Positions 1 through 37,070 of a stretch of 37,070 nt of DNA are shown here, piece after piece. The notes under the pieces are model-generated. The model had not been told where the DNA came from and did no database searches. It was given only the letters and a program-made list of their open reading frames with translations. This DNA is from a virus. Position 1 is the first letter of the stretch. Each line of letters begins with the position of its first letter. The translations under genes and the position numbers were made by a program. The DNA is taken from IMG/VR virus record IMGVR_UViG_3300025168_000253, positions 1 through 37,070 of that record. One strand, 5' to 3'.

Positions 1-46
1 CTTTAAGCTCAACCTTAGTTACATTGTGAATACTTAGTGAATACAT
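1..46 (-). CDS. Partial CDS, N-terminus of small early protein
   Basis: This is the first 15 codons of a leftward gene that leaves the window. The start ATG is the complement of 44-46, with a GGAG ribosome site just upstream in the gene's direction. The predicted beginning MYSLSIHNVTKVELK is identical to that of the complete 78-residue gene at 33084-33320, so it is the strain-1 copy of that gene. It lies directly downstream of DUF932 in the leftward operon. Function unknown. Confidence 0.75.
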   Translation of the reverse strand, partial: MYSLSIHNVTKVELK

Positions 47-57
47 GCGTGTTCTCC

Positions 58-894
58 TTACGCTAGTTCTAGCCATGACTTGTGCTTCATGGCCTTGATG
101 ATGGCTGCTTCACGGATACGTCTCGCATTCTCTGGCGACTTGGCTTCGTCCGTGTGTGTAGCCCATGATGTTAGACAGTTATACAAAGCCCACTTGGTAT
201 TACCTAACTGCGCTCGTTCATTATCAAAGCCACCCAGTAGATTCTGTAACTGCCTGTCATTAAACTTATCATGACTTGCCTTGTGTTGTACGTTACATAC
301 AGTCTTTTTAAAGAAGGACTCTGCTTGTTCGGTAGTGACAGGTGTACTTCTGTATGCTTCCCATACTCCCTTGCTATTAAGAAACATTTCAAGACCATCA
401 GCTATCTTATGAGCCGAGCTATCTACGCTTACGTTAGTTGTATGTTTGGCCCATGTTTTAGCTACAGTGTCGGCAGTGGTGCAGCCATTTTTACACCACA
501 AACGAAAGCCTTCTGCTGATTGTTGGAAAGCCCAGCTACCATCATAGCTATTGTATGCTTGAACACGGTACTGAATGTAATCATTTACTTCAGCGTCCTC
601 CAACATAATATCGTTGAACAATACCTCAAGCCGCATCTTAGCACCGTTGTCTGCAACGTGTGTCTTAACGCTGTAGTCTGAGCTAATGTCAGCTTGTTTA
701 ATTGAATCCATGATTGAGTTGACCGCATCACTGTGCGTAATTGGTTTGTACTTAGACTTGTGAGTGCCAAGCGATTCACCTGTGTCAGTGCGTATTAGAT
801 TACGCATCTTAGGTATTTCATTACCACGCATATCTAAGCATGGCTCCATGTCTACGCCAAAGTCCCAGTCTGTAGTGTTCATAGTATCTAGCAT
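58..894 (-). CDS. DUF932 (TIGR03299-like) phage/plasmid protein, copy 1
   Basis: A 278-residue protein resembling the DUF932 phage/plasmid-like family, whose biochemical role is not established. Features seen include an N-terminal MLDTMNTTDWDF stretch, a TDTGESLGTHKSKYKPI segment and a C-terminal helical half ending EAAIIKAMKHKSWLELA. I chose the ATG at 892-894 rather than earlier in-frame ATGs because GGAG lies six bases before it; the earlier ATG at 904-906 sits just before that ribosome site. Copy 2 at 33332-34168 differs at about 7 of 278 residues (for example K/L in LWC-NGC). It belongs to the leftward early operon and abundant early expression is plausible, but the function is not known. 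Confidence 0.88.
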   Translation of the reverse strand: MLDTMNTTDWDFGVDMEPCLDMRGNEIPKMRNLIRTDTGESLGTHKSKYKPITHSDAVNSIMDSIKQADISSDYSVKTHVADNGAKMRLEVLFNDIMLEDAEVNDYIQYRVQAYNSYDGSWAFQQSAEGFRLWCKNGCTTADTVAKTWAKHTTNVSVDSSAHKIADGLEMFLNSKGVWEAYRSTPVTTEQAESFFKKTVCNVQHKASHDKFNDRQLQNLLGGFDNERAQLGNTKWALYNCLTSWATHTDEAKSPENARRIREAAIIKAMKHKSWLELA

Positions 895-1140
895 TTGATT
901 CTCCATATTATTTAAAAAAATCACCGCGCCTTTTTATACTGGCTCCGTCCCCATTGGTACTACATGATTGGCGGCTGAGTGCTTAACTCATTTCCAATCA
1001 TGCACCTGCTCTGTTCTTGATACCCATAGTGTCTAACCGACAGGCGTTAGTCACTTCTGTTTTTGGGTCGCATGATTATTCTACATTTGATTCTCCATTT
1101 GATTGAGCGTGAGTGTCTGTGAGACACCCACTTTAGCATG
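895..1140 (-). ncRNA. Structured intercistronic segment with three hairpins
   Basis: There is no convincing gene in this 246-base gap of the leftward operon. It holds a nested hairpin at 963-1002 (outer arms CATGATTGG/CCAATCATG, inner arms TGAGT/ACTCA), a hairpin at 1029-1054 (GTG-t-CTAAC / GTTAG-t-CAC) and a perfect 6-bp hairpin at 1113-1127. Within it the leftward strand carries a copy of the local ribosome-site motif, followed by ATG and at once by a TAG stop (around 1080-1105). The segment is absent from copy 2, where DUF932 is followed directly by the 34-residue gene. It may be a small RNA, RNA-processing sites, or the relic of a lost gene. Confidence 0.4.
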
Positions 1141-1329
1141 TTAAACTGAACGAACTTCTATCTCTAATTCGTTATTGATTAAATCGCGAATCATAGTATT
1201 AACTTCATCACGTTGCTCTGATGTTAAAACTGTATCATCCGTATGCACATTAGAGAGTTGTTCTTTAAGCTCTTCGGCAATCATATTCTTAACCGCTTGA
1301 GTCAGTAGTTTAATTAGATCATCACTCAT
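1141..1329 (-). CDS. Small acidic hypothetical protein (62 aa)
   Basis: A 62-residue helical protein (MSDDLIKLLTQAVKNMIAEE...), acidic, with no Cys and no membrane segment. I take the inner ATG at 1327-1329 because GGAG lies six bases upstream, the same arrangement as at DUF932. The gene is present only in version 1 of the region and its flanks share a 16-base direct repeat (1092-1107 and 1335-1350), so it looks like a cassette inserted or deleted between conserved ribosome-site motifs. It is the third gene of the leftward cluster. I do not recognise a family. Confidence 0.6.
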   Translation of the reverse strand: MSDDLIKLLTQAVKNMIAEELKEQLSNVHTDDTVLTSEQRDEVNTMIRDLINNELEIEVRSV

Positions 1330-1362
1330 TTTAATCTCCATTTGATTGAGTTTGATTTCGTT

Positions 1363-1467
1363 TCAGCCAGCAAAGCCAGCTCCGTATAGCACAGCGATAG
1401 TGCCAACGACAAACACGACGAGCGCGATGCCGCTGATCACTGCGTCCAACAGGTGTCTGTTATTCAT
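1363..1467 (-). CDS. 34-residue single-span membrane peptide, copy 1
   Basis: A tiny protein with a polar N-terminus (MNNRHLLDA) followed by one hydrophobic helix (ISGIALVVFVVGTIAVLYG), expected to sit in the inner membrane. The ATG at 1465-1467 is preceded by GGAGGA at good spacing. Copy 2 at 34196-34300 encodes the same peptide with only N2 changed to D, although neighbouring genes were replaced. That supports it being a real gene despite its size. Its role is unknown; small early membrane peptides can act in superinfection exclusion or host takeover, but nothing here proves this. Confidence 0.7.
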   Translation of the reverse strand: MNNRHLLDAVISGIALVVFVVGTIAVLYGAGFAG

Positions 1468-1558
1468 GTGGTGTCCTCCGACTCGGTGGTAGTTTATCTT
1501 CTCATCTGGCCCGAGTGCAGCGAGGTTAACAGCCAGATACATTTTCCTCACCGAACAT

Positions 1559-1589
1559 AAAAAAAGAGGACAGCCATAGCCATCCTCTT
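1559..1589 (-). terminator. Rho-independent terminator, leftward
   Basis: Read leftward, the arms AAGAGGA (1583-1589) and TCCTCTT (1564-1570) enclose a 12-base loop and are followed by a run of seven T. It lies directly after the stop of the 169-residue gene at 1608-2117 and before the 34-residue membrane peptide. It should stop or attenuate transcription of the first leftward gene. Confidence 0.8.
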
Positions 1590-1607
1590 CCTTTATTTAC
1601 AGTTCGT

Positions 1608-2117
1608 TCATTGAACGGTATCCACACCGTCAGTATTTTGTATATAACTTGTGTCAGTAGAGTCGTGACCCAAGGCTTCAAGTTCTGCGGCAATATCGCT
1701 TGGAACCTCACCGTTCCAATCAATTGCAACGTTACTTACTGACCTCATATTGTAAGGTGTATACACATCACCAGTGTCTTCTTCATACTGCAGCTGCAAT
1801 CCATTCCATAGGTGTGTCAGTAAGTCTTGCTTGTCAGATGCAGCACGCTGTCCTGCCATTGCACCCTTGAGAAACATCGTTGAAATCTCATCGCCATTAT
1901 AACGCTTGCGAGCTGTTACAACTCTCTGTTTTTGCTTGTCTAGGTAAGCTTCTGTGCCGCTTTGACCGTTCATCAAGTATGACAGCTTATCTAAGATACC
2001 TTCTATTATAATCTTGCGCTGGTATGTCATAACATCCTGCACAACCCAGTCGTTATTCTTAGTAATCTCTGCATTCATTGTCAGTGATTCAATTATTCTC
2101 TGTGCTGCATTATCCAT
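1608..2117 (-). CDS. Hypothetical early protein (169 aa)
   Basis: This is the first gene of the leftward cluster in version 1. It encodes a soluble, mostly helical protein with an acidic C-terminal third (DIAAELEALGHDSTDTSY) and no recognised domain. The start ATG at 2115-2117 has a weak GGAA ribosome site. It is followed by its own terminator. In version 2 the same place is taken by an apparently unrelated 136-residue gene (34360-34770), so this is a site of gene exchange. First-in-operon phage genes facing away from the packaging genes often act against host functions; that is inference only. Confidence 0.72.
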   Translation of the reverse strand: MDNAAQRIIESLTMNAEITKNNDWVVQDVMTYQRKIIIEGILDKLSYLMNGQSGTEAYLDKQKQRVVTARKRYNGDEISTMFLKGAMAGQRAASDKQDLLTHLWNGLQLQYEEDTGDVYTPYNMRSVSNVAIDWNGEVPSDIAAELEALGHDSTDTSYIQNTDGVDTVQ

Positions 2118-2174
2118 TGTACTTGTTCCATTCTATTAAGTTACATTTCACTCACACATTATCGTATGAATGTT

Positions 2175-2980
2175 CAAATACACAGCCGACGAGCGCGATC
2201 GTGCCGAAGGGGATCGTCAAGGGCGTTTAACGAAGTGACCGTGAGGGCAGCCACGCGCAAACGCACGGACCTGCACAAGCATAAAAAGAATGAAGCGACC
2301 AGAGGGAGCACAATATAAAACAATGCGCGGAAGGGAGTACGATGAGCATGGCAACCGAGGGGTAAATGCCCGACCCCTGACCAAAGGGAATGGGGTTGAC
2401 GACACATCGCGATCTTTGGCCATCTGGAAGATAAAATCCGTACGGCATATTGTGTGTGTGTGAAACTCAACAGAGAGCAGGAACCTGCAAGCCTTCCGAG
2501 CCTGCGAGGAATAGCGCAAGCAGACACCTGCTCGTGTTACTCGGTAGACTAAGCGTGAGCGAGCAAAGCCGTGAACACATTTTACCGAAGCGAGAGCGTA
2601 GGTACATATGCAAATGCCCGAACGATGACCGGAGGGAACGCAATTCGTTAGCTAAATAGACTGGAAGCCATCAAGCAGTGAGGGCATCCAAGCGACCTGA
2701 GCTTGCGAGGAGGAGCGCGGCCTAACTCTGGTGGTGCAGATCTTCAAACGACAAGACAGCTTTTCAAGGCACGAAGGAAAGTGTCTAGAGTGCAGGAGAT
2801 CGCCGCCACCAATTAGGTATAAATAGGCCAGCAAAGAAGACAGCAATAGCCGAGCTTGCGAGGGAATGATACTCACCCGAAGGGCCAAGACCTTAGGCTT
2901 GGTTCATGAGTAGCACGGCCATTGCCCGCAACTCTACTTTAGGGAGACTAAACCGTAAATGCGTCAAGCCCTAAAACCAT
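2175..2980 (+). ncRNA. Candidate large structured RNA, version 1
   Basis: An approximately 800-base non-coding stretch with many nested complementary arms. Examples: 2475-2481 with 2527-2533 (GAGCAGG/CCTGCTC), enclosing 2485-2488/2520-2523 and 2494-2497/2508-2511; 2729-2742 with 2798-2811 (12 of 14 positions pair); 2870-2875 with 2907-2912, enclosing 2885-2889/2898-2902; 2938-2944 with 2969-2975 (TTTAGGG/CCCTAAA). A GAGA tetraloop stem lies at about 2584-2605. GNRA-type loops appear when read rightward, so I assign the plus strand. A possible H-type pseudoknot is at 2350-2378. Exact ends are unknown. It is not recognised as a named class; size and phage setting recall GOLLD or ROOL RNAs. Confidence 0.5.
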
Positions 2981-3093
2981 GTGCATTGGTATGGGTTTAA
3001 GCAACATAGGATAGGGTGGGATTGACTCGCGTACTTCAGAACGGCTAAGGAATGGGGGGAGAGGGTGAGGGGGGCTAATAGCAGGATATAGAT
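2980..3093 (+). promoter_or_regulatory. Conserved block upstream of terS, version 1
   Basis: Bases 2980-3026 and 3053-3093 are almost identical to 35641-35687 and 35713-35753, although most sequence further upstream differs. Between them lies a 26-27 base stretch that differs between versions. The first block ends in TTGAC, a possible -35 element, with only weak -10 candidates after it. The second is a G-rich stretch (3054-3074: G6-AGA-G3-TGA-G6) followed by an AGGAT ribosome site. It may be the late promoter and leader or the packaging (pac/cos) recognition site, which often lies next to terS. Which one cannot be told from sequence. Confidence 0.45.
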
Positions 3094-3465
3094 ATGTTAG
3101 AACAACGTAAACTAACCAAGAAACAGATAAGTCTGGTGGATACCCTCGTAGCAACAGGATGCACATTGCGCGAAGCTGCTACAGAAGCAGGGTATGCCAA
3201 CGGCGAATCAGGAAGAGTAACCGCAAGCAAAACGATACGCTTACCGCATGTGCAGTCTTACATGATGCAACGGGTAAACGAACAGCTTGGAATGAATGCT
3301 ACTGTGGCTGCAGCACGTGTTATGAACTTGGCTACGGGGGCTAGATCAGAGTACGTACAGCTTGAGGCTAGCAAAGACATATTAGATCGCGCTGGCTTCA
3401 AGCCCATAGACCGTAGTCAGGTACAAGTTGCTGGGGACATTAGAGTTAGCATTGACCTGAGTTAG
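3094..3465 (+). CDS. terS: Terminase small subunit (probable), copy 1
   Basis: A 123-residue protein. The N-terminal part (about residues 8-55) reads as a DNA-binding helix-turn-helix with CTLREAATEAGYANGESGR. The C-terminal part carries EASKDILDRAGFKP (91-104), the pattern seen at the end of many phage small terminase subunits. It would recognise phage DNA and hand it to the large subunit encoded at 5501-7024. The ATG follows AGGAT at normal spacing. Copy 2 (35754-36125) differs at two residues only (I12M, T30E). Eight small genes separate it from terL, an unusual distance. Confidence 0.72.
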   Translation: MLEQRKLTKKQISLVDTLVATGCTLREAATEAGYANGESGRVTASKTIRLPHVQSYMMQRVNEQLGMNATVAAARVMNLATGARSEYVQLEASKDILDRAGFKPIDRSQVQVAGDIRVSIDLS

Positions 3466-3592
3466 TGGAGGGGGGGTTAAAAAACCCCTACCTACTGTTA
3501 GCTAGTAGTCCCATACACACACGATACTGACAAAAGGCATCTTTCCTAAAATATTATTTTGGTTTAGGGGTTTGATTGAACAGGAGATAGAC
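3466..3592 (+). promoter_or_regulatory. Conserved leader with sigma70-like promoter, copy 1
   Basis: This intergenic leader differs from copy 2 (36126-36252) at about two bases only. It contains a G-tract/C-tract element (GGGG...CCCC around an A-rich loop, about 3471-3489), a hairpin CTACT/AGTAG at 3492-3508, and a promoter-like pair CTGACA (3527-3532), 17 bases, AATATT (3550-3555). The -10 region overlaps a near-palindrome, CCTAAAATATTATTTTGG, that could be an operator. It precedes the AGGAG site of the gene at 3593. It probably starts transcription of the packaging and head genes. Confidence 0.45.
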
Positions 3593-3925
3593 ATGGCTGA
3601 TGTAACAGGCAAGCTGAAGACTTTAGAGAAGACGCGAGTTAGTCTTTTAACTAAGTTAGAAAACATTGCTGAAACTATGAGGCAGAAGCAACTTGACCGA
3701 GGCGGTGAGAAGCCAGAGGGCAAGGAGCTTAAATCTCACAAGGCCTTAGCTCGTAAGGCGGATCAACATCGCAAGCAAGTTAAGGTTGTTGATAAAAAGA
3801 TTGCCGAGGTTCGTGGCAAGCCATCTCCGTATCGCACTGGCGGTGGTCGTGCTGCTGGGGTTGGTTCTGCGCTTGGTCGCACACCAAAGTCTTTGTTGAA
3901 AAACAAGTTGATGCCCAATACGTGA
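3593..3925 (+). CDS. Basic coiled-coil protein with conserved C-terminal tag, version 1
   Basis: A 110-residue lysine-rich protein. Residues 1-80 are helical and probably coiled (LKTLEKTRVSLLTKLENIAETM), followed by a glycine-rich linker and a C-terminal stretch GGGRAAGVGSALGRTPKS... ending KNKLMPNT. The ATG at 3593 follows AGGAG. In version 2 (36253-36603) the first codons and the C-terminal 28 residues are kept while the body is unrelated, so the tail behaves as a separable module. It lies between terS and other small basic genes. Function unknown; a virion-incorporated or packaging-accessory protein is plausible. Confidence 0.65.
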   Translation: MADVTGKLKTLEKTRVSLLTKLENIAETMRQKQLDRGGEKPEGKELKSHKALARKADQHRKQVKVVDKKIAEVRGKPSPYRTGGGRAAGVGSALGRTPKSLLKNKLMPNT

Positions 3926-3937
3926 CAGGAGATTGAT

Positions 3938-4315
3938 ATGAAGACGGAAACAAAGCGGCCTATGGCTGGTAGGGCTAGAAGTTTATTAAAGAAGGTTAGT
4001 GCTGAGATTGACAGCATACCTAAGTATAAGGGTTCTCTTACTGGTCAACCTGCTGAGACGCCATTGCAGATGGTTAGTCATAGTATTACTGCTGCTCGTC
4101 GCGCCATTCGTTTTCTCAAGGGCCAGCCTTCTGTTTCTTCTTTGGTTTCTAAGCGTAAGAAGCTGGAAGGCATAGTTAAGGACGCGGAAGAGTTTAAGAA
4201 GATGGACTTTAGTTTCTCTGAGGGCAAGGGTCCCAGCGGAGAGATGGGTAAGGCGACTACTACTCTAAGCAAGTCTGCTTATTTAAATAAGAAGCGCAAA
4301 GAGCGCAATCGTTGA
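3938..4315 (+). CDS. Hypothetical basic protein (125 aa), present only in version 1
   Basis: A 125-residue, strongly basic protein with helical segments (AGRARSLLKKVSAEIDSI and LVSKRKKLEGIVKDAEEFKK) and a KKRKERNR C-terminus. The start ATG at 3938 has an AGGAG site. In version 2 this gene is cleanly missing: the stop of the preceding gene is followed at once by the sequence that lies after this one in version 1. No domain is recognised. It could be a nucleic-acid-binding accessory protein, from charge only. Confidence 0.62.
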   Translation: MKTETKRPMAGRARSLLKKVSAEIDSIPKYKGSLTGQPAETPLQMVSHSITAARRAIRFLKGQPSVSSLVSKRKKLEGIVKDAEEFKKMDFSFSEGKGPSGEMGKATTTLSKSAYLNKKRKERNR

Positions 4316-4351
4316 AGGCTGGCGTATTAGCATCGGTATTAAGGATTCATT

Positions 4352-4636
4352 ATGGCAACACCAGCGTGGACACGGAAGGAAGGCAAGAACCCAGCGGGGG
4401 GCTTGAACGCCAAGGGCCGAGCGGGAACGGGCATGAAGGCTCCAGTAAAAAGCGGAGACAACCCAAGAAGGGCCAGCTTCCTAGCGCGAATGGGGAACAT
4501 GAAGGGGCCAGAAAGGGACGAAGACGGAGAGCCGACTCGTCTTCTTCTTAGCTTAAGAGTGTGGGGAGCATCGTCCAAAGCTGACGCAAGAGCGAAGGCT
4601 AGGGCTATTAGCAAAAGGAATAAAGCAAATGCCTAG
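4352..4636 (+). CDS. Small conserved phage protein, DUF6321-like (94 aa), copy 1
   Basis: A 94-residue basic protein beginning MATPAWTRKEGKNPAGGLNAKGR, then NPRRASFLARMGNMKGP and TRLLLSLRVWGASSKADARAKA. This pattern (NPxGGLNxKGR, NPRRxSFxxRMxxMKGP) matches a family common in marine phages that I recall as DUF6321; I cannot verify the label. Copy 2 (36640-36924) keeps the motif and has KGG where this copy has AGG. Role unknown. Its stop overlaps the next start by 8 bases, indicating coupled translation. Confidence 0.75.
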   Translation: MATPAWTRKEGKNPAGGLNAKGRAGTGMKAPVKSGDNPRRASFLARMGNMKGPERDEDGEPTRLLLSLRVWGASSKADARAKARAISKRNKANA

Positions 4637-4766
4637 TGGTAAAGGAACTAAGGTTGGTCGTTCTCCCAAGCAGAAGCCAGCTATGACTAAGAAGCAGAAG
4701 ACATTACCGACTGCTTTAAAGAGAAAGATTATGAAACCTAAATCAAGTGGTTCTGGCGGGTATTGA
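4629..4766 (+). CDS. 45-residue highly basic protein, copy 1
   Basis: A tiny Lys-rich protein (MPSGKGTKVGRSPKQKPAMT...KSSGSGGY) that starts inside the end of the preceding gene and ends one base before the next ATG. It is preserved in copy 2 (36917-37054) with two conservative or modest changes, which supports it being translated. Its charge suggests contact with nucleic acid; no known domain. Confidence 0.6.
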   Translation: MPSGKGTKVGRSPKQKPAMTKKQKTLPTALKRKIMKPKSSGSGGY

Positions 4767-4767
4767 T

Positions 4768-4935
4768 ATGGCTGTTAATGCTGCTGGTAATTACAACAAG
4801 CCCACAATGCGGAAGTCTTTATTCAAGCGCATTAAGGCTGCGAATGTGCAAGGTACTGCTGCTGGCAAGTGGTCGGCGCGTAAGGCTCAGTTATTGGCCA
4901 AGCGTTATAAGGCTGCTGGTGGAGGTTATACATGA
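4768..4935 (+). CDS. 55-residue basic protein (MAVNAAGNYNKP family)
   Basis: A small protein with MAVNAAGNYNKPTMRK at its N-terminus and KWSARKAQLLAKRYKAAGGG at its C-terminus, a pattern I have seen in uncharacterised marine phage proteins. I choose the ATG at 4768, immediately after the stop of the previous gene (TGATATG), rather than an earlier in-frame codon inside that gene. The stop overlaps the next start (ATGA). Function unknown. Confidence 0.68.
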   Translation: MAVNAAGNYNKPTMRKSLFKRIKAANVQGTAAGKWSARKAQLLAKRYKAAGGGYT

Positions 4936-23155: not shown

Positions 23156-25756
23156 ATGACTATTACTTTAGCACAGAACGCAGCGCGTGTATCTTACTCT
23201 GTAAGTGAGGGAGCTACACAAACATCGTTTACTGTATCGTTTGAGTTTTTTGATGCTGCCGATCTTAACGTATATGTTGATGGTACTTTAAAAACTATCA
23301 GTACTCACTACACTGTAAGCGGGGGCAGCGGTTCTACTGGTGCAGTAGCTATATCAGTTACAGGCGCAAGCGGTGGCAGCACTGTGGTTATTACTAGAAG
23401 TATTGCGCTTGCTAGAACAACTGACTTTCCTTCGTCTGGGTCGTTTCAGATTGCCACGCTTAACACTGAGCTAGATCGTTTTACTGCTATTGCTGCTGAC
23501 CTTAAAGATTCTGCTGATCGTGCATTAATTCTTTCTGATTCAGACTCAAGTGTTTCTACAACATTGCCATTGTTGGCTAGTCGTAAAGGTACTGTTCTTG
23601 GTTTTAACGCAAGCAGTGGTGCTGTTGAGGCGGGTCCATCTATTACTGCGGTTCAAACTTTATCTGCTGCAAGTGCATCTATTAATCTTCTTGGCACTGC
23701 TGCGGTAGTTGAAGATATGGGCTTATTGTCTGCTTCTGCGGTTATAGAAGACATGGGGCTTTTAGGTACTGCTGCTGTTATTGAAGATATGGGTTTGCTT
23801 GCAACCTCTGCTGTTATTGAGGACATGGGATTACTTGCCACGTCTGCTGTTATAGAAGACATGGGCTTGCTTGGAACTAGCGCCAACGTTACAGCAATGG
23901 GATTGCTTGGTAATAGTACAGTAATTACAAATATATCTAACCTTAGTGCTAGTGCTGTAATTGCAGACATGGCTATACTTGCTACAACAGATGTTGTCGC
24001 TGATATGAATACATTAGCTACAAGTGATATTGTTGCTGATATGAATTTACTAGCAACATCTGCTGTTATTGAAGACATGGGCTTATTAGCTACTTCTGCT
24101 GTTATAGAAGATATGGGCTTACTTGCCACCTCAGCAGTTATAGAAGATATGGGGTTATTAGCTACAAGCGCAGTCATTGAGGACATGGGGCTATTAGCTA
24201 CGAGCGCGGTAATTGAAGATATGGGATTGCTGGCTACAAGTTCAGTCATCTCCGATATGTCAACACTTGCTGGCAGTGGAGCAAATCCTAATATTACTAG
24301 CGTTACAGCCAGCGGAGCGGTAACGGCAGGGTCTCTAATTGCAACCACATCTATGACCGTCCAAAACGCCAGCGGCACAGAGGGTGTGTTTCTAAATTAC
24401 AACGAAAACGGCGGTGAACTTCAATTATTGGGCACCAGCGGCAATACCAAACTTCTAATTGATTATCTGGACAGCGACAATGACGGCAACGGTTTAGGGA
24501 GAATTTTAAATCTAGGTGCTGGCAGCACGGGCGTTCAAATTGGCGTTGCAAATGCTTCCAATACTGGAGGTATTATTTTTAGCACAGGCAACAATGTGAC
24601 CCGCCAATTAATATCCAATATCGGTGACATAACTAACTACAATACTGATGGCAGCACGGCTAAAATGACGTGGGATGCCAGTGAAAACAATCTCACTTTT
24701 GTTGACGGAGCAAAAGCGACTTTTGGAAATTCTGCAGATTTGCAAGTGTATCACGATGGGTCAGATTCTTATGTAGATGATGCGGGTACAGGAGCTTTAA
24801 TTTTACGTGGCAATAGTAATGTTACCATTGGAAAATATACAGGCGAAACAATGGGTTTCTTTGAAGCTGATGGTGCAGTTTCTCTATATCACAACAATGC
24901 AGTTAAACTAGCCACAGCAGCTACAGGCGTAGACATCACGGGCGCTTGCACGGTTAGCCCAGATACTGCTGGTAAAGATACATTTTTATTTACCTCAAAT
25001 GCCGCCAATGATGCGAGTATGTTTTTAAAATCTGACACCACCAATAAAGTAAACATTCAAGCAAACGGCGATTCTTTTTTCAATGGCGGTAACGTCATGG
25101 TGGGTACTACTGACACTACTCTTTACAATAATTCAACCGGCACAGGCACTAAAATTGGTGGTGATGGTCGTTTAGATGTAGCACGCCAAGGTGATACCGT
25201 TGCAACTTTCAACCGCACTGGAAGCAGTAACGGAGAAGTAATACGGATAGTTTCGTCGGGTACTACGGTGGGGAACATTACAATCTCAGGTTCAAACACA
25301 GCCTACAACACATCCTCAGACTACCGTTTAAAGACTGACGCACAGCCGATGACAGGTGCATCTGCCCGTGTGCTGGCACTTAACCCAGTTAACTTTAAGT
25401 GGATTGCAGACGGTACTCGTGTTGATGGTTTCTTGGCACATGAGGCACAGGCTGTAGTTCCTGAGTGTGTTACAGGCACCAAAGACGCAATGCGTGACGA
25501 AGAGTATCAGGTATCAGCAGCTACAGGTGACATCTATACACCAGCTACAGATGAAGCAGACGAGGTTATTCACAGCGCAAATGCAGAGCAACCAGAGACA
25601 CTAGCAGATGGTAAGCAGTGGCGGGAGACTACACCCGCTGTAATGGGTACTCGTTCAGTACCAGACCTGCAGGGCATTGATCAATCCAAGATTGTTCCAT
25701 TGCTTGTGGCTGCACTGCAAGAAGCATTAGCACGGATTACGGCATTGGAAGGATAA
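23156..25756 (+). CDS. Tail fibre with T7-like N-terminus, 12-residue repeats and S74 chaperone
   Basis: An 866-residue fibre. Residues 1-150 match the T7 gp17-type attachment domain (TITLAQNAARVSYSVSEGATQTSFTV...). Residues 178-369 are sixteen 12-residue repeats with consensus LLATSAVIEDMG, likely a trimeric shaft. Then follow beta-rich segments (ADLQVYHDGSDSYVDDAG). The C-terminus is an S74-type intramolecular chaperone with SSDYRLKTDAQPMTG, the usual Ser-Lys pair, then VLALNPVNFKW and GFLAHEAQAVVPE. It would trimerise and cleave itself. The ATG follows AAAGGAG. Confidence 0.9.
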   Translation: MTITLAQNAARVSYSVSEGATQTSFTVSFEFFDAADLNVYVDGTLKTISTHYTVSGGSGSTGAVAISVTGASGGSTVVITRSIALARTTDFPSSGSFQIATLNTELDRFTAIAADLKDSADRALILSDSDSSVSTTLPLLASRKGTVLGFNASSGAVEAGPSITAVQTLSAASASINLLGTAAVVEDMGLLSASAVIEDMGLLGTAAVIEDMGLLATSAVIEDMGLLATSAVIEDMGLLGTSANVTAMGLLGNSTVITNISNLSASAVIADMAILATTDVVADMNTLATSDIVADMNLLATSAVIEDMGLLATSAVIEDMGLLATSAVIEDMGLLATSAVIEDMGLLATSAVIEDMGLLATSSVISDMSTLAGSGANPNITSVTASGAVTAGSLIATTSMTVQNASGTEGVFLNYNENGGELQLLGTSGNTKLLIDYLDSDNDGNGLGRILNLGAGSTGVQIGVANASNTGGIIFSTGNNVTRQLISNIGDITNYNTDGSTAKMTWDASENNLTFVDGAKATFGNSADLQVYHDGSDSYVDDAGTGALILRGNSNVTIGKYTGETMGFFEADGAVSLYHNNAVKLATAATGVDITGACTVSPDTAGKDTFLFTSNAANDASMFLKSDTTNKVNIQANGDSFFNGGNVMVGTTDTTLYNNSTGTGTKIGGDGRLDVARQGDTVATFNRTGSSNGEVIRIVSSGTTVGNITISGSNTAYNTSSDYRLKTDAQPMTGASARVLALNPVNFKWIADGTRVDGFLAHEAQAVVPECVTGTKDAMRDEEYQVSAATGDIYTPATDEADEVIHSANAEQPETLADGKQWRETTPAVMGTRSVPDLQGIDQSKIVPLLVAALQEALARITALEG

Positions 25757-29215: not shown

Positions 29216-29510
29216 CTGCTTCTCCATTACGCAGTGTGTTGATACCAATATTGTAAACACATTCTTTGTAGAATGCCTCTACTTCGTCCATATTTTTTAT
29301 GTCACGAAGGCGCTCAGTTACATAGCGTAGATTAACAGCGCCCTCACGTCTTTGATTAAGTTCTTTTTGTGCTTGATCTTTTGCTTTTGCTTTGCGTACA
29401 GCAATGCTATCTTTGTAAGTGTCTTTAGCTTGCATAGCTAACTTAGCTTGCATAGCTACAAGCTCTTGATCTTTTTTACTTGGACGTCCGCGTTTTCTTT
29501 TCTCAACCAT
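29208..29510 (-). CDS. Small basic protein with AT-hook-like start (100 aa)
   Basis: A helical protein starting MVEKRKRGRPSKKD, where RGRP (7-10) is an AT-hook core, followed by a long Lys/Ala/Gln-rich helix (RKAKAKDQAQKELNQRR). The ATG at 29508-29510 follows AAGGAG. It lies between the exonuclease and annealing protein genes with overlaps on both sides. It may bind AT-rich DNA. Confidence 0.68.
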   Translation of the reverse strand: MVEKRKRGRPSKKDQELVAMQAKLAMQAKDTYKDSIAVRKAKAKDQAQKELNQRREGAVNLRYVTERLRDIKNMDEVEAFYKECVYNIGINTLRNGEADG

Positions 29511-30306
29511 GTGCATTCTCCTTGCGTGTTGATATTCTAAGTGACCCGCGCCTGTCTCTGCGTATAGTTAACAAGTCGCAGTACACTTCCCGTTCGTTAT
29601 CCCCCACCATTTGCTTGAGACTTTTCTTGGCTGACTCAAACGATTTGGCATGGGCTTCGTTGCCAATGTAGTCGTGAGCTATAGATGTAAAGTGATTGTC
29701 GCCATTGGCATCACGCTTAATCATATCATCTACAGGTATGCTATCTATCTTCATAGTTGCTGGCTGATCGTAGCCAAGTGGCTCTGTGTCTGTATCTATA
29801 TGATGCCAGAATTGTTTGATCGCAGTCATCATAAGGTTAAAGTATGACTCGCTCCATGCAACGTGCGAACACTCCCACTTGTTGTTGCCAAAAAAAGCAG
29901 AGAGGAAGCATCCGTCTTTGCCAGACAGCTTCATGTAACACTGCAACTGTGGCATGTAGTATTCAATCAACGCATCCATAGTGTTGTATGAATTAGTATG
30001 CTTGCACTCAACAATAGAACCGCGACACATACCATCAATCGTACCCTTCATAGGTACGCCATCAACATTGCGTTTGTACTCATACTGATGATTGTGAACT
30101 AGGTAATCATTCATGTCACGCTTGGGCATGTTCTCTTCAAACCACTGCATGTTAAATGACTCAGTGTAACTACCCATGCGTACCGCAAGGTTGTCGTTAA
30201 GATCAGGGCTAGGTATCTTGCCCGTCTTGATCTGCCATAGATCATACCAATCTCCCTGCATAATTTTTACACAGTCAGACCCACCTATAAATCCTGTACG
30301 TTTCAT
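29503..30306 (-). CDS. YqaJ-type viral recombinase exonuclease (PD-(D/E)XK)
   Basis: A 267-residue lambda-exonuclease-like nuclease. Motifs: FIGGSD (6-11), MGSYTE (44-49), KGTIDG with Asp91, and VECKHT (99-104), which supplies the catalytic E-x-K; then YYMPQLQCYMKL. It should resect DNA ends for the annealing protein. I take the ATG at 30304-30306, with GGGGAA just upstream. The 8-base overlap with the AT-hook gene suggests coupling. Confidence 0.85.
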   Translation of the reverse strand: MKRTGFIGGSDCVKIMQGDWYDLWQIKTGKIPSPDLNDNLAVRMGSYTESFNMQWFEENMPKRDMNDYLVHNHQYEYKRNVDGVPMKGTIDGMCRGSIVECKHTNSYNTMDALIEYYMPQLQCYMKLSGKDGCFLSAFFGNNKWECSHVAWSESYFNLMMTAIKQFWHHIDTDTEPLGYDQPATMKIDSIPVDDMIKRDANGDNHFTSIAHDYIGNEAHAKSFESAKKSLKQMVGDNEREVYCDLLTIRRDRRGSLRISTRKENAHG

Positions 30307-30329
30307 AACATTCCCCATTGTTATCAAGG

Positions 30330-33118: not shown

Positions 33119-33320
33119 CTACATAGTGATGTGAAACACTGGTATCAATTACGGGGCAGATACTTGTGTAGTCTGGGCCAAACAAACCAACGGTATGCTC
33201 AGTCATAGTGCCATCATAATTTTTAGTAGTAACGACAAGATTGCGAGAGCTAAAGTTATTGAATAGCTTGGTAACTTTAAGCTCAACCTTAGTTACATTG
33301 TGAATACTTAGTGAATACAT
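33084..33320 (-). CDS. Hypothetical early protein (78 aa)
   Basis: A 78-residue beta-rich protein (YSLSIHNVTKVELKVTKLFNNFSSRNLVVTTKNYDG) with an Asp run near its end (YVDDDDDTTQTAA). The ATG at 33318-33320 follows GGAG. Its first 15 codons are also seen at 1-46 of the window, next to the other DUF932 copy. No recognised domain. Confidence 0.68.
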   Translation of the reverse strand: MYSLSIHNVTKVELKVTKLFNNFSSRNLVVTTKNYDGTMTEHTVGLFGPDYTSICPVIDTSVSHHYVDDDDDTTQTAA

Positions 33321-33331
33321 GCGCTTTCTCC

Positions 33332-34168
33332 TTACGCTAGTTCTAACCATGACTTGTGTTTCATGGCCTTAATGATGGCTGCTTCACGGATACGTCTCGC
33401 ATTCTCTGGCGACTTAGCTTCGTCCGTGTGTGTAGCCCATGATGTTAGACAGTTATACAAAGCCCACTTGGTATTACCTAACTGCGCTCGTTCATTATCA
33501 AAGCCACCCAGTAGATTCTGTAACTGCCTGTCATTAAACTTATCATGACTTGCCTTGTGTTGTACGTTACATACAGTCTTTTTAAAGAAGGACTCTGCTT
33601 GATCGGTAGTGACAGGTGTACTTCTGTATGCCTCCCATACTCCCTTGCTATTAAGGAACATTTCAAGACCATCAGCTATCTTATGAGCCGAGCTATCTAC
33701 GCTTACGTTAGTCGTATGCTTAGACCAAGTTTTGGCAACTGTATCTGCCGTAGTGCAGCCATTGAGACACCACAAACGAAAGCCCTCTGCTGATTGTTGG
33801 AATGCCCAGCTACCATCATAGCTATTATATGCTTGAACACGATACTGAATGTAATCATTTACTTCAGCGTCTTCCAGCATAATGTCGTTGAATAATACCT
33901 CAAGCCGCATCTTAGCACCGTTGTCTGCAACGTGTGTTTTAACGCTGTAGTCTGTGCTGATGTCAGCCTGTTTGATTGAGTCCATGATTGAGTTGACCGC
34001 ATCACTGTGCGTGATTGGTTTGTATTTAGACTTGTGAGTGCCAAGCGATTCACCTGTGTCAGTGCGTATTAAATTGCGCAACTTAGGTATCTCATTGCCA
34101 CGCATATCTAAGCATGGCTCCATGTCAATCGCAAAGTCCCAGTCTGTAGTGTTCATAGTATCTAGCAT
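33332..34168 (-). CDS. DUF932 (TIGR03299-like) phage/plasmid protein, copy 2
   Basis: The 278-residue counterpart of the gene at 58-894. Changes include GV to AI near residue 15, M to L, K to L in LWC-NGC, A to S in KTW-KH and E to D in VTT-QAES; all are single-residue changes. The start ATG lies six bases after GGAG, as in copy 1. Here the upstream neighbour is directly the 34-residue membrane peptide, without the cassette found in copy 1. Function not established. Confidence 0.88.
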   Translation of the reverse strand: MLDTMNTTDWDFAIDMEPCLDMRGNEIPKLRNLIRTDTGESLGTHKSKYKPITHSDAVNSIMDSIKQADISTDYSVKTHVADNGAKMRLEVLFNDIMLEDAEVNDYIQYRVQAYNSYDGSWAFQQSAEGFRLWCLNGCTTADTVAKTWSKHTTNVSVDSSAHKIADGLEMFLNSKGVWEAYRSTPVTTDQAESFFKKTVCNVQHKASHDKFNDRQLQNLLGGFDNERAQLGNTKWALYNCLTSWATHTDEAKSPENARRIREAAIIKAMKHKSWLELA

Positions 34169-34195
34169 TTGATTCTCCATTGATTTGATTTCGTT

Positions 34196-34300
34196 TCAGC
34201 CAGCAAAGCCAGCTCCGTATAGCACCGCGATAGTGCCAACGACAAACACGACGAGCGCGATGCCGCTGATCACTGCGTCCAACAGGTGTCTGTTGTCCAT
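34196..34300 (-). CDS. 34-residue single-span membrane peptide, copy 2
   Basis: This peptide is identical to the one at 1363-1467 except that residue 2 is Asp. The ATG at 34298-34300 follows AGGAG, a different ribosome-site context from copy 1, so the coding sequence is kept while its upstream junction differs. One hydrophobic helix; expected in the inner membrane. Confidence 0.7.
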   Translation of the reverse strand: MDNRHLLDAVISGIALVVFVVGTIAVLYGAGFAG

Positions 34301-34329
34301 ACGTTTCTCCTAACGTGAGCAAGAGTTAA

Positions 34330-34347
34330 GGAGGACCGAAGTCCTCC
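34330..34347 (-). terminator. UUCG hairpin after the first leftward gene
   Basis: Read leftward, GGAGGAC-TTCG-GTCCTCC is a perfect 7-bp stem with the extra-stable C-UUCG-G loop, followed by a weakly T-rich TTAACTCTT. It stands where version 1 has a standard terminator (1559-1589), so the same control point is kept with an unrelated sequence. Confidence 0.65.
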
Positions 34348-34359
34348 CACTGTGGCTGA

Positions 34360-34770
34360 TTAGCCGTACTTTTTGGCGTAGTACGCTTTCTTCTCTTCAC
34401 TGAGCTGAGATGGGCGTGACTTCTTATCTCTTGGTTCCCATTGTGTGCCGTTGATTGATTCGTGAACACTAAGATCAATTGCGTGTATCTCTTTCAGAAT
34501 GTCCAACTCTACATCAAGACCATCTAGCTTAACGTGAGAAGTATATGCACCTTTTAATTCTTTTTGCTCTTGGGCAAAGATTTCATCTTGAATCATCTTG
34601 CGCTTGTAATCAATGGCACCTTTGCTGTTGTAGCAAGCGCCACTTGCGACTGATAACAGAAAAAATTCATTAGCTGCTTCACCAGTTTTGGCCTTGTGCG
34701 AAGCCTCAATGTAAGCCAGTGCAGACTGCTTGCCCTTGATCAGATCAGATGTGATATTCTTCGTAACCAT
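34360..34770 (-). CDS. Hypothetical first leftward gene, version 2 (136 aa)
   Basis: A 136-residue, basic, mostly helical protein (SDLIKGKQSALAYIEASHKAKTGEAANEFFLL...) ending EKKAYYAKKYG, with two Cys at most and no recognised domain. The ATG at 34768-34770 follows AGGAG with eight bases between. It occupies the place of the 169-residue gene of version 1, to which I see no similarity. It may be a host-directed early protein. Confidence 0.7.
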   Translation of the reverse strand: MVTKNITSDLIKGKQSALAYIEASHKAKTGEAANEFFLLSVASGACYNSKGAIDYKRKMIQDEIFAQEQKELKGAYTSHVKLDGLDVELDILKEIHAIDLSVHESINGTQWEPRDKKSRPSQLSEEKKAYYAKKYG

Positions 34771-34794
34771 GTCATGTTCTCCTAGTAGTTTTCC

Positions 34795-35640
34795 AAGTAC
34801 AGCAACGGCTCGCCCGTTGCTCCCCTCCTGACAACGCGACACCAAATCGCGAGCAAGCTCGCGGCTTGAAGTTTGCAATGGCAAAGACGGAAGGTTTATA
34901 CAAATAGGCGATGCCCACTACTAACCAATTTGCCGCGTAAGCGAATAGCAAATTCACAGAGAATGCGTGGTTAACAGCATCGCAACAGCAAGAGTGTATG
35001 AAAGCCGTCTTTGTCATTGCGAACTTTTTGGTGACGTGTTTCAGATCAGAGGGGGGCATCGGGTGAGTCGGGGATGAACGCTAGGAAAACGACCGACGGA
35101 GAACCTTGACTGGTTGCGGAGAATTAAACGTCTGATCTGATCAAGGCAGCAAGCAGGCGGCACTGGCTTTAGCATTGAGGGTGAGCACAAGGACAAAACT
35201 TTCTACATATGCCGCTAATGAGTTTTTTCTACTTATGTTATCAGTCGCAAGTGGTGTTTGTTGCGACAGCGAAGGTGCTTGATTGCAAGTGCGATGATTC
35301 AAGATGTGTTCTGCAGACCGAGAGCAAAAGGAATTAAACGGTGCATGTTCTTTGAGCGCAAGTTAGATTGCCGCAGATGTAGAGCTGGATATTCTGTAGA
35401 GATACACCGTTGATCAGTGTTCTACGGAGCAATCATCGGTACGCAATGGCAATCAATGAGATACGAAGGAATGCACATTTCTGCCAGTGTTGAGAAGAGA
35501 GCGTACTCAACATAAATACTGCAACATCTGACACTGTGGAGGCTTTGGTTCTTCTTGGCTCTGGCGAAATGTGACGGGCTGCTGTGCCACTGTTCTTCTT
35601 TAGGTAGAGTAAACGTAGAATCCGTCAATAGCAGAATGAC
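34795..35640 (+). ncRNA. Candidate large structured RNA, version 2
   Basis: Strong nested folding: 34869-34890 pairs with 35005-35026 over 22 positions with two G-U pairs and no mismatch. Inside it, 34908-34914/34977-34983 (GCGATGC/GCATCGC), 34922-34926/34969-34973, 34927-34933/34948-34954 and a CGC-GTAA-GCG hairpin (34934-34943) stack in order. Further on: 35041-35050 with 35131-35140 (ten perfect pairs), 35244-35250/35261-35267 (GTCGCAA/TTGCGAC), 35488-35494/35506-35512. Upstream hairpins lie at 34801-34821 and 34848-34863. The GTAA loop is GNRA only when read rightward, favouring the plus strand. Ends are not defined. Confidence 0.58.
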
Positions 35641-35753
35641 TGTGCATTGGTATGGGTTTAAGCAACATAGGATAGGGTAGGATTGACATACGTTTATCCA
35701 AGCTGTCTACAGTGGGGGGAGAGGGTGAGGGGGGCTAATAGCAGGATATAGAT
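35641..35753 (+). promoter_or_regulatory. Conserved block upstream of terS, version 2
   Basis: Counterpart of 2980-3093. It contains a nearly identical 47-base segment ending TTGAC, a 26-base segment unlike that of version 1, and an identical G-rich stretch (35714-35734) with the AGGAT ribosome site. TTGACA (35683-35688), 17 bases, TCTACA may be a promoter. A packaging site is the other reading. Confidence 0.45.
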
Positions 35754-36125
35754 ATGTTAGAACAACGTAAACTAACCAAGAAACAGATGAGTCTGGTAGA
35801 TACCCTCGTAGCAACAGGATGCACATTGCGCGAAGCAGCCGAAGAAGCAGGGTATGCCAACGGCGAATCAGGAAGAGTAACCGCAAGCAAAACGATACGC
35901 TTACCGCATGTGCAGTCTTACATGATGCAACGGGTAAACGAACAGCTTGGAATGAATGCTACTGTAGCTGCAGCACGTGTTATGAACTTGGCTACGGGGG
36001 CTAGATCAGAGTACGTACAGCTTGAGGCTAGTAAAGACATATTAGATCGCGCTGGCTTCAAGCCCATAGACCGTAGTCAGGTACAAGTTGCTGGGGACAT
36101 TAGAGTTAGCATTGATCTGAGTTAG
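35754..36125 (+). CDS. terS: Terminase small subunit (probable), copy 2
   Basis: A 123-residue counterpart of 3094-3465 with two substitutions (Met12, Glu30), both in or near the N-terminal DNA-binding part. Motifs are as in copy 1: CTLREAAEEAGYANGESGR and EASKDILDRAGFKP. The upstream G-rich block is identical. Its large subunit partner lies beyond the window. Confidence 0.72.
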   Translation: MLEQRKLTKKQMSLVDTLVATGCTLREAAEEAGYANGESGRVTASKTIRLPHVQSYMMQRVNEQLGMNATVAAARVMNLATGARSEYVQLEASKDILDRAGFKPIDRSQVQVAGDIRVSIDLS

Positions 36126-36252
36126 TGGAGGGGGGGTTAAAAAACCACTACCTACTGTTAGCTAGTAGTCCCATACACACACGATACTGACAAAAGGCAT
36201 CTTTCCTAAAATATTATTTTGGTTTAGGGGTTTGATTGAACAGGAGATAGAT
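36126..36252 (+). promoter_or_regulatory. Conserved leader with sigma70-like promoter, copy 2
   Basis: Almost identical to 3466-3592. CTGACA at 36187-36192 and AATATT at 36210-36215 are 17 bases apart. The G-tract/C-tract element has one change (CCCC to CCAC), which leaves TAGTGG/CCACTA arms able to pair. Confidence 0.45.
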
Positions 36253-36603
36253 ATGGCTGAAAAAGGTTCACTACTAAAGATTGCTAATAAGTTAAAGAAT
36301 CAGATTGCTCATTTAGATTTGTTTGATGAGTTAAACACCGAGGATCATCCTATATCCTCCACCCCTTCTGATGAAGAAAAGAAGGAGAAGCGCAAAGAGG
36401 CTCATCAAAAGCGCAAGCAGTTAGCTAAGGTTATGGCTAGAATAAATAAGATGTTTGATAAGAAAGCGTCTTCAAAAAAGACGGCAAAGCAAATACGAAC
36501 TCAGCAATCTAGTTCTGGCGGTGGTCGTGCTGCTGGGGTTGGTTCTGCGCTAGGTCGCACACCTAAGTCTTTATTGAAAAACAAATTGATGCCCAATACG
36601 TGA
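36253..36603 (+). CDS. Basic coiled-coil protein with conserved C-terminal tag, version 2
   Basis: A 116-residue protein. The body (KGSLLKIANKLKNQIAHLDLFDELNTEDHP..., then a Lys/Glu-rich coil) is unrelated to the version 1 protein at 3593-3925, but the last 28 residues, from GGGRAAGVGSALGRTPKS to MPNT, are identical and follow a Ser/Gly linker. The ribosome site and start are the same. It is followed directly by the DUF6321-like gene, with no copy of the 125-residue gene found in version 1. Confidence 0.65.
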   Translation: MAEKGSLLKIANKLKNQIAHLDLFDELNTEDHPISSTPSDEEKKEKRKEAHQKRKQLAKVMARINKMFDKKASSKKTAKQIRTQQSSSGGGRAAGVGSALGRTPKSLLKNKLMPNT

Positions 36604-36639
36604 GGGCTGGCGTATTAGCATCGGTATTAAGGATTCATT

Positions 36640-36924
36640 ATGGCAACACCAGCGTGGACACGGAAGGAAGGCAAGAACCCGAAGGGGGGCTTGAACGCCA
36701 AGGGCCGAGCAGGGACGGGCATGAAGGCTCCAGTAAAAAGCGGAGACAACCCAAGAAGGGCCAGCTTCCTAGCACGGATGGGAAACATGAAGGGGCCAGA
36801 AAAGGACGAAAAAGGAAAGCCGACTCGTCTTCTTCTTAGCCTAAAGGTATGGGGAGCATCGTCCAAAGCTGACGCAAGAGCGAAGGCTAGAGCAATTAGC
36901 AAAAGGAATAAAGCAAATGCCTAG
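36640..36924 (+). CDS. Small conserved phage protein, DUF6321-like (94 aa), copy 2
   Basis: Counterpart of 4352-4636, with NPKGG in place of NPAGG, KDEKGKP in place of RDEDGEP and LKVWG in place of LRVWG. This copy is closer to the family pattern I recall (NPKGGLNAKGR ... DEKGKPTRLLLSLKVWG). Its stop overlaps the next start by 8 bases. Confidence 0.75.
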   Translation: MATPAWTRKEGKNPKGGLNAKGRAGTGMKAPVKSGDNPRRASFLARMGNMKGPEKDEKGKPTRLLLSLKVWGASSKADARAKARAISKRNKANA

Positions 36925-37054
36925 TGGTAAAGGAACTAAGGTTGGTCGTTCTCCCAAGCAGAAGCCAGCTATGACTAAGAAGCAGAAGACATTACCGACT
37001 GCTTTAAAGAAAAAGATTATGAAATCTAAATCAAGTGGTTCTGGCGGGTATTGA
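36917..37054 (+). CDS. 45-residue highly basic protein, copy 2
   Basis: Counterpart of 4629-4766, with K for R (ALKKKIM) and S for P (MKSKSSG) as the visible changes. It overlaps the preceding gene in the same way, and its stop is followed by the next ATG after one base. Confidence 0.6.
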   Translation: MPSGKGTKVGRSPKQKPAMTKKQKTLPTALKKKIMKSKSSGSGGY

Positions 37055-37055
37055 T

Positions 37056-37070
37056 ATGGCTGTTAATGCT
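37056..37070 (+). CDS. Partial CDS, start of the MAVNAAGN-type protein, copy 2
   Basis: Only five codons (MAVNA) lie in the window. They equal the start of the gene at 4768-4935, and the spacing to the preceding stop is the same. Confidence 0.6.

Follow-up and report, generated by a model that had tools for sequence, protein, structure and literature searches.

The window examined here, i.e., the whole stretch of DNA analysed, comprises the 37,070 nt of IMG/VR record IMGVR_UViG_3300025168_000253. Its locus is denoted W, and L-numbers denote related terS loci. The two ends of the contig are strain variants of one genome, with positions 1-906 corresponding to 33275-34180 (94.6% identity) and 2933-3600 to 35594-36260 (93.7%). 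The overlap (1-4782 against 33275-37070) shows 92–96% identity in blocks, giving a genome unit of ~32.7–33.3 kb, and one end copy has extra or different genes at 907-1326, 1468-2932 and 3600-4313. A gene for a RecE-like exonuclease is found at 29503-30327, and imperfect tandem repeats (about 70–80% identity) at 23687-24249 lie inside a large ORF (23156-25756). The region upstream of the small terminase subunit gene (terS) has the following features.

34301..35592, unstranded: apparent exchangeable cassette, coinciding with the rod; 92–94% identity between its flanks (34166-34300 and 35594-36260) and the other contig end, with the interior unaligned
34319..34846, plus strand: 5' (left) arm; inverted repeat with 35027-35565, paired in the full plus-strand fold; as plus-strand RNA, antisense to X
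34330..34347, unstranded: hairpin GGAGGAC-TTCG-GTCCTCC, seen in the sequence; located directly after the X stop codon, at the left foot of the rod, and terminator-like for X
34360..34770, minus strand: gene X, a conserved orphan alpha-helical protein of 136 aa (homologues, dN/dS, AlphaFold2)
34834..35053, plus strand: predicted RNA core (rod junction, side hairpin, apical stem); match to model R1 and covariation on 21 representatives
34848..34863, plus strand: side hairpin of the core, CGCGAGC-AA-GCTCGCG (fold; stem of a terminator scan)
34869..34890, plus strand: 5' strand of the 22-pair apical stem (repeat search, fold)
34891..35004, plus strand: phage-specific apical region with a GTAA-capped hairpin (fold; length varies)
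35005..35026, plus strand: 3' strand of the 22-pair apical stem (repeat search), containing the conserved TTGCGAACT motif
35027..35565, plus strand: 3' (right) arm, non-coding mirror of X; inverted repeat without an ORF of matching length, tracking X substitutions
35683..35734, plus strand: TTGACA (35683-35688) followed by two G-tracts (35714-35719, 35729-35734), shared by most relatives ahead of terS
35754..36125, plus strand: terS, small terminase subunit (PHROG 2538, E = 6e-14)

A self-search of the window aligned 34319-34846 with the reverse complement of 35027-35565 at 74% identity over 556 columns, an imperfect inverted repeat with arms of ~540 bp. The initial annotation had placed a large structured RNA-like element upstream of terS, which is right, but the extent it gave (34795-35640) was too small, as the inverted repeat spans 34319-35565 and the element reaches about 475 nt further left. 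The 22-pair stem it described (34869-34890/35005-35026, two G-U pairs) is exact and, like the GTAA-topped hairpin (CGC-GTAA-GCG), is found in the minimum-energy fold of 34795-35640 (-294.6 kcal/mol, z -4.9, equalled by none of 20 shuffles). This stem is the continuation of the inverted repeat toward its centre. A 10-pair stem proposed at 35041-35050/35131-35140 exists as a match, but in the full fold both halves pair with the left arm inside X. The description of the stretch as gene-free holds for the right half only, since the left arm overlaps the conserved minus-strand gene X. A conserved reading frame had been named as a finding that would speak against an RNA; one does occur, encoded by the opposite strand of the left arm, and the RNA pairing exists alongside it. 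Instead of the self-contained ornate RNA envisaged, the element is a mirror-image rod over the adjacent gene.

Folded at full length, the plus strand of 34319-35565 forms a single rod of ~1.25 kb that pairs 34322-34845 with 35028-35562, then 34868-34902 with 34995-35027, and ends in apical hairpins, minimum-energy folds at 1.3 kb being approximate. The 1200-nt window from 34319 reaches -690 kcal/mol on the plus strand and -554 kcal/mol on the minus strand, and none of the other, non-overlapping 1200-nt windows of the contig comes near the rod (about -245 to -390 kcal/mol). On this evidence and the comparisons below, it is well supported that the plus strand would specify a giant rod, paired over long range and topped by a conserved multi-branch core.

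Homologues of X are present in dozens of contigs, at the same position in relatives. The proteins are homologous down to ~20% identity and have a common pattern, C-Y-x-S...H...W, and the alignment of all of them was too divergent to serve as a search profile. The dN/dS ratio was 0.05–0.50 in 14 of 15 pairs, mostly 0.05–0.30 with 0.50 for W/L005, the remaining pair being too close to tell; most pairs thus clearly point to purifying selection on X. The AlphaFold2 model has three long helices (pLDDT 79). No family was matched in Pfam or PHROG, no informative match was obtained from the PDB by sequence or by fold, and tblastn against named phages gave no match. Weak matches to helical bundles, including a lengthened ROP variant, were set aside as uninformative. 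In many relatives the arms extend along X between its terminator hairpin and a point upstream of its ribosome-binding site, and hairpins equivalent to the left foot adjoin the X stop codon in many of them. Right arms often repeat, on the plus strand, the ribosome-binding site and start of X (GGAGAAC...ACATG), for example in L104 rc 3099-3585 and L096 rc 3031-3515; in the right arms inspected this is followed by early stops or a lost frame, and in the window the ATG itself is lost.

The mismatches between the arms indicate the strand on which pairing is selected. A G-T opposition on one strand of an imperfect inverted repeat is an A-C opposition on the other, so that a neutrally decaying duplicate should show the two about equally often, and a strong excess of G.T points to selection on the plus strand. 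In seven loci pooled and read on the plus strand, GT and TG together numbered 216 and AC and CA 27 (about 8:1), with 119 GA+AG, 71 TT, 27 GG, 34 CT, 7 AA and 4 CC. G-left/T-right (100) and T-left/G-right (116) were balanced, which argues against one-sided decay. After correction for composition, estimated from the arm compositions, the order was G.U > G.A ~ U.U > G.G > C.U ~ A.C > A.A > C.C, which is that of RNA helices. About 30 further contigs found through X have the same asymmetry, with G.U:A.C ratios of 32:2 (L087), 42:1 (L096), 55:4 (L105), and 42:3 and 33:6 in others. The strand showing this selection is that of terS, opposite to X.

Covariation across homologues, one of the checks proposed for the element, is real. 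Between W and L005 (86.8% identical), changes on both sides of long-range pairs kept the pairing in 29 cases and broke it in 7. Over 15 pairwise comparisons, rod pairs with two-sided changes numbered 334 kept and 119 broken, against 28–40 kept and 54–69 broken in controls with slid partners; the slid versions start with fewer pairs, and after a rough correction the excess is about fourfold, not tenfold. These pairwise tests replaced a multi-family alignment test whose signals were weak, distant right arms being unalignable. At X sites that differ between well-diverged phages, both bases are Watson-Crick paired to their own right arm in 42–78% of cases (W/L005 44%, L096/L105 57%, L145/L147 68%, L087/L096 78%), percentages somewhat inflated by the alignment of the arms to each other by similarity. 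Shifting the partner by one lowers the share to 0–8%. Unchanged X positions are Watson-Crick paired in 65–86%, with 71% set beside the 78% maximum for differing sites. Close pairs with few differences score lower (L104/L107, 0 of 12; L094/L090, 3 of 12), which is what would be seen if substitutions initially disrupt or weaken a pair and compensation comes afterwards. It is thus well supported that the 3' arm has been kept complementary to the X antisense by what appear to be compensatory substitutions. The bulges fall at the same positions in much of the A2 clade, as they do in L145 and L147, whereas different clades do not share them. Inside a clade the rod has therefore been retained and not recopied; between clades, repeated origin or rebuilding may have occurred.

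In 26 divergent representatives the tips fold mostly alike, with the rod, the side hairpin and an apical stem carrying GCTTGNAGTTCGCA ... TTGCGAACT; the conserved motifs flanking the apical region are 27 to 170 nt apart in relatives. An alignment of 21 cores had 91.6% of cells paired (38–52% in slid controls), and 20 of its 27 pairs had two-sided changes, in 90 cells as compared to 11–26 when slid. None of 500 shuffles matched the core covariation on any measure; shuffles do not keep relatedness, while the slid controls do. The element thus shows covariation beyond controls and on one strand, as looked for in a structured non-coding RNA of a new class. One G.U pair is invariant in this alignment. 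In single folds the first core helix and the rod pairing compete with each other, so a part of the core may be switchable. Model R1, built with the apical stem as its only structure, scores 53.4 bits (E = 8e-11) in the window, which is one of its 16 training sequences, and it also finds loci outside the training set (best L148, 81.8 bits). All strong R1 matches are in terS orientation. The core adjoins the ribosome-binding region of X.

Similar elements lie upstream of terS in many IMG/VR contigs, which are not independent samples. Full or near-full rods are found in W, L005, L010, L019, L021, L050, L056, L059, L062/63, L080 and L082/83, and in most members of the A2 clade, and the remaining loci have only 60–130 nt of arm, at the X start. 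Many related loci thus have the apical core alone or a short rod, which indicates that the full mirror is not essential. On the TerS tree, long rods require at least seven changes on well supported branches, and identical TerS proteins accompany a long rod in L005 and mid-length rods in L007 and L009. Relatives of TerS (L148-L155) also occur in GTDB MAG contigs labelled Euryarchaeota, Gammaproteobacteria, Opitutae and Rhodobiaceae. The GTDB loci are mostly from MAG contigs, in which organism names are unreliable for phage, and L148-L155 are probably misbinned phage contigs. A DNA search of a phage collection with the rod region gave no match, and among named phages TerS matched only that of Pelagibacter phage EXVC031P Hodr (51%), which has a 356-nt gap to terS and no match to the core.

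The contig ends provide a direct comparison of two alleles. The region 34301-35592 cannot be aligned with the other end copy (variant A), whose counterpart of X (1608-2117, minus strand, 169 aa) aligns only marginally with the X family and lacks a rod; its 977-nt gap to terS folds at background level. Both borders lie slightly beyond the feet of the rod: the left one is the start codon (34300) of a membrane peptide of 34 aa, and the right one is at ~35592. This peptide (34196-34300, minus strand) has a good ribosome-binding site and is nearly identical in W, variant A, L011 and L005. It is well supported by these sequences that the rod has been inherited and swapped with X, apparently as one cassette, between phages with near-identical flanks. 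Between the cassette and terS is an element consisting of TTGACA, about 25 nt, and GGGGGG(G)-N3..12-GGGGGG(G), often with a GTGACGNNACGTCAC palindrome upstream, which is a candidate (late) promoter or terminase cut site.

Three rival explanations were set aside. An assembly or fold-back artefact might be suspected in a metagenome contig with strain-variant overlap at its ends; comparable repeats recur in many contigs from different samples, including the near-identical L102, L103 and L104, and an arm identity of 70–74% is far below that of a fold-back read, so we reject this explanation and regard its likelihood as negligible. A decaying inverted duplicate of X would account for a right arm that is 74% identical to the left and has no frame of matching length. 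Neutral decay, however, predicts neither the strongly one-sided mismatch spectrum nor partner bases that follow X substitutions with two-sided changes kept, nor bulges common to the A2 clade though synonymous sites have turned over; a functionless duplicate is contradicted by these observations and is extremely improbable. Two-sided changes would likewise be produced if the likeness of the arms were maintained through gene conversion or DNA template switching (quasi-palindrome correction) and not through a selected fold, and such a process may contribute. It would not favour G.U over A.C, or G.A and U.U over A.A and C.C, and would erase bulges common within clades, and the mismatch bias and these bulges lead us to reject it as the sole cause. 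Perfect copy patches would speak for it; the window's longest gapless arms (46–49 nt), however, reach no more than 78–85% identity, and we give this explanation very little weight.

Two functional alternatives deserve more attention. The selected molecule could be single-stranded DNA: after terminase cutting at the G-tracts, 5'-to-3' resection by the RecE-like exonuclease would expose the plus strand at a genome end, where the rod would protect the end, prime replication or mark packaging. The rod adjoins the conserved G-tract element, contigs L006 and L016 begin inside it, and the exonuclease gene is present. DNA too tolerates G.T and G.A mismatches, and a folded plus-strand ssDNA would leave a similar mismatch pattern. 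Against this, the mismatch order fits RNA better (U.U is about seven times A.A, and G.A exceeds G.G, after composition correction), the conserved core looks like RNA, and a role as DNA gives no reason for arms matching the X boundaries; we consider it rather unlikely, though if correct it would mean a giant single-strand hairpin at a phage genome end. Somewhat more credible, but still improbable, is a structural or scaffold RNA in which the rod itself is functional, perhaps bound by X, the capsid or a host factor, the X antisense being a by-product of shared DNA. The conserved core shows covariation in short- and long-rod phages, X and the rod are co-inherited, and GOLLD and ROOL provide a precedent for giant phage RNAs without known protein partners (PMC12286853). 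This proposal explains neither the ending of the arms at the X boundaries nor the fact that, from one clade to another, the sequences of the long arms are themselves poorly conserved.

We tentatively prefer a third explanation, that a plus-strand RNA across X acts as a cis-antisense regulator of X carrying its own sequestering arm. It is favoured by the coincidence of the arms with the X unit, from terminator-like hairpin to ribosome-binding site, in many relatives, which neither a scaffold RNA nor a DNA hairpin predicts. The overlap with an opposite-strand gene that characterizes cis-antisense RNAs and excludons is present, 34319-34846 on the plus strand covering X (34360-34770) on the minus strand. 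Transcription of the plus strand across X would yield the rod RNA, and its 3' arm, while paired, would keep the antisense half from trapping X mRNA. X, transcribed divergently from the terminase operon, would thus stay expressed, or would switch when the rod opens or is cut, and the core lies beside the X ribosome-binding region, the place at which control of this kind would operate. An arm of 74% identity would lose out to the fully complementary X mRNA, so sequestration would have to be kinetic. A sigma-70 scan of 33900-36000 found no promoter, and nothing sigma-70-like on the plus strand at the left foot. The TTGACA element between the rod and terS seems to belong to terS itself, so the rod is not necessarily the leader of that gene. 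Exchange of the cassette between near-identical phages hints at a role in phage-phage or phage-host competition.

Known rod-shaped and giant RNAs resemble the element in part. Obelisks and HDV-like RNAs are rods of ~1 kb, one half of which holds a protein gene (PMC11922315). Here, by contrast, a dsDNA phage genome encodes the rod, nothing supports replication as a circular RNA, the ORF is on the strand opposite to that under pairing selection, and X has no recognised relative. GOLLD and ROOL are giant, highly structured RNAs of phages and prophages with no known function (PMC12286853). The likeness is that of a giant structured phage RNA, but their elaborate folds are pseudoknotted and usually, though not universally, near tRNA islands, whereas this rod lies over a protein gene beside terS. 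ARAGORN found no tRNA in the window, no Rfam model matched the window at its gathering score, and at a relaxed threshold nothing relevant was found in the window or ten relatives, including with the models suggested at the outset (GOLLD, ROOL, OLE and HEARO). Of the two possibilities offered by the initial annotation, kinship with GOLLD or ROOL falls away, as by sequence the rod is not a relative of these or any Rfam family; the other stands, in that the element probably belongs to a new RNA class, and the core alignment defines a family missing from Rfam.

Like bacterial cis-antisense RNAs and excludons, the rod transcript would run antisense to a gene in divergent arrangement, but we know of none of these with a second arm that mirrors and co-evolves with the whole target gene. 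No description of the rod element was found in the open-access literature, nor, to our knowledge, has a system built of a gene-antisense arm and a non-coding mirror arm been described. We consider it likely that this is a new class of giant phage RNA, in which X forms one arm of the rod and a non-coding partner arm has followed almost every X substitution, so that gene, antisense and mirror make up one exchangeable regulatory cassette beside the packaging genes of widespread marine phages. If so, a nucleic-acid element has evolved base by base while locked to a neighbouring coding sequence on the opposite strand, and it would offer a directly testable case of RNA control by a self-sequestered antisense. 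Eukaryotic hpRNAs (long hairpin RNA genes) are inverted-duplicate hairpins that co-evolve with a target gene, and bacteria lack RNAi. The rod is likewise an inverted duplicate co-evolving with its target, with the difference that here the target gene itself is one of the arms, in cis.
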